From the NCBI GenBank assembly GCA_018969785.1, contig JAGWXR010000004.1, positions 1 to 41,910 on the forward strand: a stretch of DNA of 41,910 nt. The letters run 5' to 3'. Every line of letters starts with the position of its first letter. The stretch's first letter is position 1. Source of the stretch: Alphaproteobacteria bacterium (GTDB lineage: Bacteria; Pseudomonadota; Alphaproteobacteria; Micropepsales; Micropepsaceae). Position numbers and translations under genes: made by a program. The notes under the pieces are model-generated. The model ran no database searches and was not told where the DNA came from. It saw nothing but the letters and a program-made list of their open reading frames with translations. Below, one piece after another: positions 30,949 through 34,113 of this stretch.

Positions 30949-31542
30949 TCAGGCAAAGTCACCTGCAAGTTCCTGCCGCGTTGCACCCTGCAGAACGGCA
31001 ATGTGCCCGTAGTTGGAATGGGTGAACCCCAGCATCACCGGCACGGACGCATCCCGGAACCGTGAAATCTGCGCCGGTGTGAGGGTGAACCGGATGAAAT
31101 GCACCGACGAAGTCTTTCCGTCCGGCGTCGTCCGTTCGGTCTCCTGCTCGAAACCGGCCTTGAGGCGCTCCCCGCCAATGTCGAGGAAAATGGTCTCCTC
31201 GACATGCGTGAGCTGGCGCAGGATCACGGCGCGCTGCCGCTCATCCTCGATCTCGAACATCACCGTCGCGACAAGCTCGTTGCCCTGCGGGATGAGGGGG
31301 TTATAGGCCCTCAATTCGTCATCAACCTGCTCAGCCCCGCCCTTCTCGATGTAGAGCATCTCCTGGACTTGCTGCAGCATGGTCTCGAAGCACTCGAAAT
31401 AGAACGTGGCATGCGGCCCGACTTCAACCCGCCGCAGCCTCTTGCGCGGCAGGATCGCCTTGCGGCGCTCGGCACGTTGAGCCGCATAGGCCGACGTGTC
31501 GATGATGTCGTCGCGTGTGATCTTCCTGAGCTTCTGAGGCAT
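30949..31542 (-). CDS. DUF3501 family protein
   Basis: FECFETMLQQVQEMLYIEKGGAEQVDDELRAYNPLIPQGNELVATVMFEIED; recognisable DUF3501 and standard neighbourhood. Confidence 0.85.
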   Translation of the reverse strand: MPQKLRKITRDDIIDTSAYAAQRAERRKAILPRKRLRRVEVGPHATFYFECFETMLQQVQEMLYIEKGGAEQVDDELRAYNPLIPQGNELVATVMFEIEDERQRAVILRQLTHVEETIFLDIGGERLKAGFEQETERTTPDGKTSSVHFIRFTLTPAQISRFRDASVPVMLGFTHSNYGHIAVLQGATRQELAGDFA

Positions 31543-31546
31543 CTGA

Positions 31547-32890
31547 CTACTCCACCAGTCCGTAGGCTTTCGCCATGAGTTCGATCGGATGCGCCGTGTC
31601 CGAGACGACCTTGCTCTCGTCCTGCGCCCGCATGATCTGCTTCAGGTGCTTGGCGGCCAGCGGACAATCAGACACGACATGCGCGTGCCCCTGCCCCGCC
31701 GCCGTGCGCGCCGCCGGTCGCCCCACCTTCACCGCAAGGTCATGGGTCGGCTGAAGCACCCCGAACGTGCCGCCATGTCCTGAACAGCGCTCGATGACGT
31801 CTACCTTGGTCTCGGGCAGGAGCCTGAGCATCTCGGCCGCCTTCGGCCCCATGTTCTGCGCGCGCGCATGGCACGCGAGGTGAACGCTGACCCCGCCGTC
31901 AACCGGCTTCGCACCCGCCGGCAGCCCATCCTTCTTGGCAATATCAACCACATATTCGTCGATGTCGAACGTGGCCTTGGCAAGGCGCGCGACATTCTCG
32001 TTCTTGGGCACGATGAGCGGCCACTCGAACTTGAACATCAGCCCGCAGCTCGCCGTGAGCGTGATGATGTCATAGCCCTTGTCGATATAGGGCACGAGCG
32101 CCGCCGAAACCTTCTCCGCCTGCGCGGCGACGCGCTCGAGGTTGGCCTGCTCGAGGAACGGCATGCCGCAGCAGCCCGGATACTCGACGATCGCCTCGAC
32201 CCCGAGGTGGTTGAGCAGCTTGCGCGCCGCCATGCCGGTGATGGGCCTGTTGTAATTCACGAAGCACGTCGCAAACAGCAGCGCCTTGCGCTTGCCGAAG
32301 GCGGGCGCCGCCTCGTTTGCAAAACCGGGGTCGCCCCGATCCTGCATGACGAAGGTGCGGGTGTTGAACTTCGGCAGTTCCGCGCGGGCATCGATGCCCG
32401 CCACGCTCTCGGCAAGCTTGCGCGTCGTCTTGTTCTTGACGTCCGAGCCCCAGTTCGCGACCGGCGCAACCACCGCCGCCACCGTGCCATTGCGGTCCAT
32501 CTCGGCAAGCTGGCGCGCCACGAAATGGGTCTTGCCCTTCGCAGCCTCTGCAGCCCGGTAGCGCAGCATCAGGTGCGGGAAATCCAGGTTGAATTCATGC
32601 GGCGGCACATAGGGACATTTCGTCATGAAGCACATGTCGCACAGCGTGCAGGCATCGACCACCTGTCCGAAATCCTCGGATTTCACGCCGTCCATTTCCT
32701 CCGTGGGCGAATTGTCGACAAGGTCGAACAGCCGGGGGAATGAATCGCAAAGGTTGAAGCAGCGCCGGCAGCCATGGCAGATGTCGAAGACGCGCCTCAT
32801 CTCCTCGTCGAGCTTTTTCTCGTCGAGGAAATCGGGCTCCTCCCAGTTCAGCGGATGCCGCACCGGAGCCTGCAGACTGCCTTCACGCAT
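31547..32890 (-). CDS. (Fe-S)-binding protein with two 4Fe-4S motifs and CCG-type domains (GlpC/HdrB-like)
   Basis: CHGCRRCFNLC, CTLCDMCFMTKCP, YPGCCGMPFLE and ERCSGHGGTFG motifs. Confidence 0.9.
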   Translation of the reverse strand: MREGSLQAPVRHPLNWEEPDFLDEKKLDEEMRRVFDICHGCRRCFNLCDSFPRLFDLVDNSPTEEMDGVKSEDFGQVVDACTLCDMCFMTKCPYVPPHEFNLDFPHLMLRYRAAEAAKGKTHFVARQLAEMDRNGTVAAVVAPVANWGSDVKNKTTRKLAESVAGIDARAELPKFNTRTFVMQDRGDPGFANEAAPAFGKRKALLFATCFVNYNRPITGMAARKLLNHLGVEAIVEYPGCCGMPFLEQANLERVAAQAEKVSAALVPYIDKGYDIITLTASCGLMFKFEWPLIVPKNENVARLAKATFDIDEYVVDIAKKDGLPAGAKPVDGGVSVHLACHARAQNMGPKAAEMLRLLPETKVDVIERCSGHGGTFGVLQPTHDLAVKVGRPAARTAAGQGHAHVVSDCPLAAKHLKQIMRAQDESKVVSDTAHPIELMAKAYGLVE

Positions 32891-32969: not shown

Positions 32970-32999
32970 ACGCCGGCAGGCCTCATGGCCCGCCGGCGT
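32970..32999 (-). terminator. Terminator-like hairpin immediately 3' of rubrerythrin
   Basis: Minus strand ACGCCGGC-g-GGCC-ATGA-GGCC-t-GCCGGCGT followed by TTTGCTC; 14 nt after the stop at 33014. Confidence 0.7.
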
Positions 33000-33013: not shown

Positions 33014-33433
33014 TCAGCCCAGGTTGTCGAGCGCCTTCTGGAAGCGGCCGGCGTGGCTCTTCTCCGCCTTGGCCAGCGTCTCGAACCAGTCGGCGATCTC
33101 GTCGAAGCCTTCCTGGCGCGCGGTCTTGGCCATGCCCGGATACATGTCGGTGTACTCGTGCGTTTCACCGGCGATGGAAGCCTTCAGGTTGTCCGACGTG
33201 GAACCGATCTTCAGGCCCGTCGCCGGGTCACCCACGGCTTCAAGGAACTCGAGGTGGCCGTGCGCATGGCCCGTCTCGCCTTCGGCAGTCGAACGGAAGA
33301 CGGCGGCAACGTCATTGTAGCCTTCGACATCGGCCTTCTGCGCGAAATAGAGATAGCGGCGGTTGGCCTGGCTCTCGCCGGCGAATGCCGCCTTCAGGTT
33401 TTCGAGTGTTTTCGATGCTGCAAGCTTCGTCAT
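33014..33433 (-). CDS. Rubrerythrin-type protein without C-terminal rubredoxin domain
   Basis: NLKAAFAGESQANRRYLYFAQKAD ... EGETGHAHGHLEFL ... AGETHEYTDMYP ... KAEKSHAGRF; no CxxC rubredoxin knuckles. Confidence 0.92.
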   Translation of the reverse strand: MTKLAASKTLENLKAAFAGESQANRRYLYFAQKADVEGYNDVAAVFRSTAEGETGHAHGHLEFLEAVGDPATGLKIGSTSDNLKASIAGETHEYTDMYPGMAKTARQEGFDEIADWFETLAKAEKSHAGRFQKALDNLG

Positions 33434-33484: not shown

Positions 33485-33512
33485 AAACTACTCGCCTTCG
33501 CCACGAAGTCAA
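33485..33512 (-). promoter_or_regulatory. Sigma70-like promoter candidate for rubrerythrin
   Basis: Minus strand TTGACT - 16 nt - TAGTTT. Confidence 0.45.
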
Positions 33513-33516
33513 TAAG

Positions 33517-33531
33517 TTGGAATTATTCTAA
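33517..33531. promoter_or_regulatory. ICE-like (iron control element) box for Irr: TTGGAA-TTA-TTCTAA
   Basis: Close match to the published Irr ICE pattern TTTAGAA-N3-TTCTAAA, one mismatch inside the 6-bp arms. Confidence 0.6.
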
Positions 33532-33533
33532 TT

Positions 33534-34001
33534 TCATGAACGCGACTTGAGACGCACCACGATATCCACGCGCTCGATCTCCTTGCCCGAAGGCGCCTTC
33601 GGCAAGCCCTCGATGCGCACGTCGCTGCCCGGAATGTCGATCAGGACCCCGTCATCCTCGACGTAGAAGTGATGATGCTCGCCCGTGTTGGTATCGAAAT
33701 GGATCTTGTCGCCATCGACAATGACCTGCCGCAACAGGCCAGCCTGCGTGAACTGGTGCAGCGTGTTGTACACGGTGGCCAGCGACAATCTCGCCCCGGC
33801 GCCCAGCGCCTCGCCATGGAGGTCTTCGGCTGTGACGTGACGGTCGCCGCCGGAAAACAGGAGCCGCGCAAGCGCGAGGCGCTGTTGTGTCGGGCGCAGC
33901 TGCGCCGCGCGCAGCCGCACGGCAAAGTCTGCCTTGTGCCGCTGGCCTTGCCGGGCATTTTCGGCTGCAGGCTTTGATCCTGTGGAACGCATGCCGGACA
34001 A
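33534..34001 (-). CDS. irr: Fur-family iron response regulator Irr
   Basis: LRPTQQRLALARLLFSGGDRHVTAEDLHGEA, LATVYNTLHQFTQAGLLRQVIVDG, EHHHFYVEDDG (HxH region). Confidence 0.9.
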   Translation of the reverse strand: MSGMRSTGSKPAAENARQGQRHKADFAVRLRAAQLRPTQQRLALARLLFSGGDRHVTAEDLHGEALGAGARLSLATVYNTLHQFTQAGLLRQVIVDGDKIHFDTNTGEHHHFYVEDDGVLIDIPGSDVRIEGLPKAPSGKEIERVDIVVRLKSRS

Positions 34002-34094: not shown

Positions 34095-34113
34095 GTTTTG
34101 AATAGCTCAAAAC
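34095..34113. promoter_or_regulatory. Perfect inverted repeat GTTTTGA-ATAGC-TCAAAAC in irr/fabA divergent region
   Basis: 7-bp perfect arms, 5-nt spacer. Confidence 0.5.

Follow-up and report, generated by a model that had tools for sequence, protein, structure and literature searches.

The most probable explanation (about 80%) of the 15-bp palindrome that lies between irr and the rubrerythrin gene rbr is that it serves as an Irr operator at the rbr promoter, with genes for RFO and a DUF3501 protein lying behind; this reading draws on comparison of related genomes. The genes are arranged in the order irr, rbr, RFO and DUF3501 on the minus strand of the window, by which is meant the whole 41,910-nucleotide stretch of DNA analysed here (Table 1). 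The initial annotation had placed an Irr-controlled promoter in front of rbr and possibly of the genes downstream. For rbr this is well borne out by the cross-genome comparison, while control of the downstream genes is possibly only partial, because a hairpin followed by TTTT is interposed between rbr and RFO.

Table 1. Features of the irr-rbr region of the window, in the order in which they are read on the minus strand.
Feature	Position	Strand	Remarks
irr, FUR-family regulator	33534..34001	-	NCBIfam IrrA 201 bits (cut-off 150), Irr 187 bits (cut-off 170)
17-mer form of the box, ATTAGAATAATTCCAAC	33532-33516	-	
Irr-type box (ICE), TTGGAATTATTCTAA	33517..33531	.	kept in orthologous promoters
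-35 element, TTGACT	33507..33512	-	4 nt past the 15-mer, 3 nt past the 17-mer; gap conserved
Candidate -10 element, TAGTTT	33485..33490	-	16-nt spacer; 3/6 against TATAAT
rbr, rubrerythrin	33014..33433	-	139 aa, without rubredoxin domain (aerobic type)
Hairpin, terminator-/attenuator-like	32970..32999	-	13 bp, GC-rich, then TTTT; z -4.2
RFO	31547..32890	-	
DUF3501 protein	30949..31542	-	4 nt past RFO

The rubrerythrin is of the aerobic type, both in its lack of a rubredoxin domain and in its neighbours, RFO and DUF3501 being marker genes of the aerobic-type rubrerythrin lineage (PMC5114695). The hairpin, a strong one, separates rbr from the next gene, RFO, and was not called in the terminator scan. 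It is plausible that the rbr promoter drives RFO and DUF3501 as well, perhaps in part.

The sequence and position of the box, its single arm mismatch, and the four nucleotides and TTGACT-16-TAGTTT that follow it on the minus strand had all been described correctly beforehand. TTGGAATTATTCTAA lies 2 bp beyond the irr stop codon and differs from TTAGAANNNTTCTAA by one mismatch, and it is the sole site in the window with at most one mismatch; for up to two mismatches, 0.09 matches are expected per shuffle. The palindrome is close to TTTAGAA-N3-TTCTAAA, with one mismatch in the 6-bp arms and 3/14 in the 17-mer form, and, as an ICE should, it lies near the promoter of an iron/peroxide gene and is conserved. 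The composite of the site and TTGAC at 4 nt is found in the window with one mismatch, where chance predicts none; at up to one mismatch it has a single match in the whole genome to which the window belongs, and the reversed pattern has 0. The promoter had been judged reasonable, which holds for its -35 element, since TTGACT is good and near consensus, but not for TAGTTT, which is called weak because of its 3/6 match and a score below the cut-off of the promoter tool. The bare box is not in excess in this genome (6 sites with up to three mismatches, where the reversed control gave 8) and little so in the genus, and genome-wide excess was dropped as a line of support; the case therefore rests on position and conservation rather than on the motif alone.

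Conservation in orthologous irr-rbr spacers, proposed at the outset as the check on this idea, proved strong in the genus and across the class. An Irr-type box stands exactly 3 nt (counted from the 17-mer) before TTGAC in 10/10 genus members that have rbr, and at two loci (L008 and L015) the site stays with rbr although irr is not its immediate neighbour. In the related genera g4, g5 and g7 (L016, L018-L022) the standard site is altered or absent. At two loci of genus g5 (L021 and L022), a box-like site was observed 16 nt, rather than 4, before the -35 element.

An even sample of the class, comprising 111 irr-positive and 10 irr-negative genomes, was searched for the box within 400 bp upstream of rbr. 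With up to two mismatches it was found in 70/111 of the former against 1/10 of the latter (Fisher p 0.0015, a value that ignores shared ancestry, the irr-negative genomes being few and not independent), and it was represented in 42/62 families; 20 permuted palindromes gave 0-3 matches each in the same sample. About 20% of the irr-positive genomes have no box upstream of rbr even when three mismatches are allowed. When boxes with up to three mismatches were required to have TTGAC within 30 nt, 77 matches were obtained, in 52 of which the gap from the 17-mer to TTGAC was 3 nt, and 49 permuted palindromes gave 0-6. Aligned orthologous promoters show two conserved islands, the box with TRTTGAC and then an AT-rich -10 region about 17 nt further on, although conservation at TTGA is there by selection, the rows having been picked for it; the spacer is mostly 16-17 nt. 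The layout of box and TTGAC is present in loci of named organisms that include SAR11-like, SAR116, Reyranella and Sneathiella records, and absent from Caulobacter and Phenylobacterium loci in which rbr does not adjoin irr. A related palindrome, TTAGAYWAAGTCTAA, was seen at rbr loci of beta- and gammaproteobacteria that have no irr next to rbr (L100, L101, L102 and L107), starting 54-116 bp before rbr.

These comparisons make it scarcely credible that the box in the window is a chance palindrome, functionless in this organism: its arm mismatch, the weak -10 element and the lack of excess of the bare box would suit that explanation, but the identical place and spacing recur wherever the genus has rbr, and also in the majority of the class. 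Which protein uses the box is a separate question. In 5/6 of the genus genomes checked, irr shares the FUR family with just one further gene, so Irr is the likely binder, to judge from gene content; Irr binds comparable boxes in vitro, among them that of ccpA in Rhodobacter sphaeroides (PMC3413700). The alternative that the box is used by the other FUR-family protein (Fur/Mur) instead of Irr gains something from the presence of a second such gene in every genome checked and from the resemblance between the boxes of FUR-family proteins, but it is improbable, given that the box tracks both the presence and the adjacency of irr and has the sequence of an Irr-type ICE.

The regulator encoded just upstream had been identified as Irr, and its product does exceed both curated Irr cut-offs. 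It has an HXH heme site, present as EHHHF, of which the first and third histidines are invariant in 102 relatives bar one gap. The protein contains no cysteine, and therefore no Cys-Pro heme regulatory motif of the kind found in B. japonicum-type Irr; CP occurs in 3/108 relatives. The metal ligands of PerR are residues 37, 85, 91, 93 and 104. The window Irr has a PerR-type His-Asp-His-His-Asp metal site with the same 48-6-2-11 spacing, and all five ligands are invariant in 102 distinct rbr-adjacent Irr proteins bar one gap; such a site is compatible with peroxide sensing by Irr. The solved structures nearest to it by sequence are those of Fur and PerR.

Two other features of the genome deserve mention. 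The gap between irr and fabA contains a palindrome, TTTTGAATAGCTCAAAA, at 34096-34112, some 110 bp ahead of where irr begins. Eight loci of the genus retain it as TTTTGAGNTANTCAAAA, and it may serve irr or fabA; it was considered as a second Irr box and rejected, being conserved in the genus but nearer to its own palindrome, TTTTGAGNTANTCAAAA. A strong OxyR-like LysR protein is encoded elsewhere in this genome (G000:C183:7084-7950; 250 bits, cut-off 329), while scores in the other members of the genus go no higher than about 109 bits. No canonical OxyR above the cut-off was found in the genus, an absence that is not used as an argument here because of this strong OxyR-like protein.

Within the genus, boxes with up to two mismatches precede rbr, katG, dps and an rpoH-like gene, katG being confirmed by TIGR00198 and dps and rpoH being identified from sequence only. 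Among the katG loci read, 18/41 irr-positive ones have a box, in placements of two kinds, either before TTGAC or near the start codon. At G090:C202, G094:C2, G326:C69 and G189:C9, katG, irr and rbr form a single cluster, with katG lying between irr and rbr in G090 and G094, where katG and rbr have separate boxes, each 3 nt before TTGAC. Box-like TTTAGAATTGATC(C/T)AAA was also observed about 60 nt before the gene for the rpoH-like sigma factor in several members of the genus (L165, L167, L172, L173 and L265-L268). Because relatives have the box at katG and dps too, the set suggests a peroxide/iron regulon; where the initial annotation spoke of a peroxide or iron-handling module, the combination of katG, dps and rbr would favour peroxide defence at least equally with iron handling.

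It is proposed that, at low heme or iron and low peroxide, an Irr dimer would occupy the box, with a footprint extending to the -35 element and a consequent reduction in transcription; heme binding or oxidative stress would then inactivate or remove Irr, and rbr expression would rise. That Irr represses rbr, with relief by heme or peroxide, is the least certain step, and its chances are put at slightly better than even. The lean towards repression comes from boxes at other genes that overlap the core promoter (the dps box overlaps the candidate -10 in two genomes, and some katG boxes lie near the start or past the core promoter) and from R. sphaeroides ccpA, where the spacing is similar, transcription starting about 40 nt past the box, and where repression is mild, low-iron expression rising 1.8-fold when Irr is missing (PMC3413700). 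Peroxide is better tolerated by Irr mutants of several species, which is on the side of repression. So is the finding that D. shibae has less Irr protein when under oxidative stress (PMC8007024).

Direct activation of rbr, in which Irr bound at about -47 would contact RNA polymerase and low iron or heme would raise rbr expression, is possible but rather unlikely. It would fit the strictly fixed gap between box and -35 element, and according to a review Irr activates or represses depending on the location of the box, and often activates (PMC7762939); the 1.57-fold increase of SAR11 rbr (SAR11_0399) in iron limitation (PMC2864753) is a weak pointer in the same direction. Against activation, the box centre, near -47 if a 17-nt spacer is assumed, would be about half a helical turn off the usual position for a class II activator; the -35 element is near consensus, unlike that of many activator-dependent promoters; and ccpA is mildly repressed. 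The published hints on the sign are weak, SAR11 rbr and ccpA giving opposite results.

If Irr does govern the rbr promoter, aerobic-type rubrerythrin gains a likely regulator class-wide, SAR11 relatives included, and the fixed promoter layout offers a simple system in which to ask whether one position of a FUR-type box means activation or repression. With the box at a constant promoter spacing in dozens of families, iron sensing and peroxide defence appear to have been linked for a long time, and the link is testable, as is the idea of Irr as a peroxide regulator. The broader proposal, that in many alphaproteobacteria Irr acts as PerR, sensing peroxide directly or via heme and governing katG, rubrerythrin and dps through fixed boxes, with the rhizobial heme/iron regulon as a later elaboration, is tentative and on balance unlikely. 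Earlier predictions of Irr sites are reportedly due mainly to Rodionov et al. 2006, which may already have listed rbr as an Irr target; the papers examined here gave no description of the regulation of aerobic-type rubrerythrin.

The aerobic-type rubrerythrin-RFO-DUF3501 cluster of Cardenas et al. 2016 (PMC5114695) has the same three genes as the window; irr and the box are newly added here, and neither Irr nor PerR nor promoters came up in a text search of that paper. The ICEs of Bradyrhizobium mbfA (blr7895) and bfr (bll6680) resemble the window box in palindrome class, in having Irr as binder and in having a rubrerythrin-like or iron-storage target, but MbfA is a large iron exporter of the membrane that includes a ferritin-like domain, whereas the window Rbr is a 139-aa rubrerythrin. 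In R. sphaeroides mbfA the start site is inside the box, whereas the window box lies upstream of the -35 element. The Irr-bound box of R. sphaeroides ccpA likewise has a peroxide-scavenging target; CcpA, however, is a heme cytochrome c peroxidase rather than a rubrerythrin, and loss of Irr has only a mild effect there. The PerR regulon of the B. subtilis type shares the metal-ligand spacing, catalase- and dps-type targets and a similar box, but Irr has a known response to heme, the window Irr falls below the cut-offs of all curated PerR models (best 54 bits, cut-off 250), and peroxide sensing by it is hypothetical.
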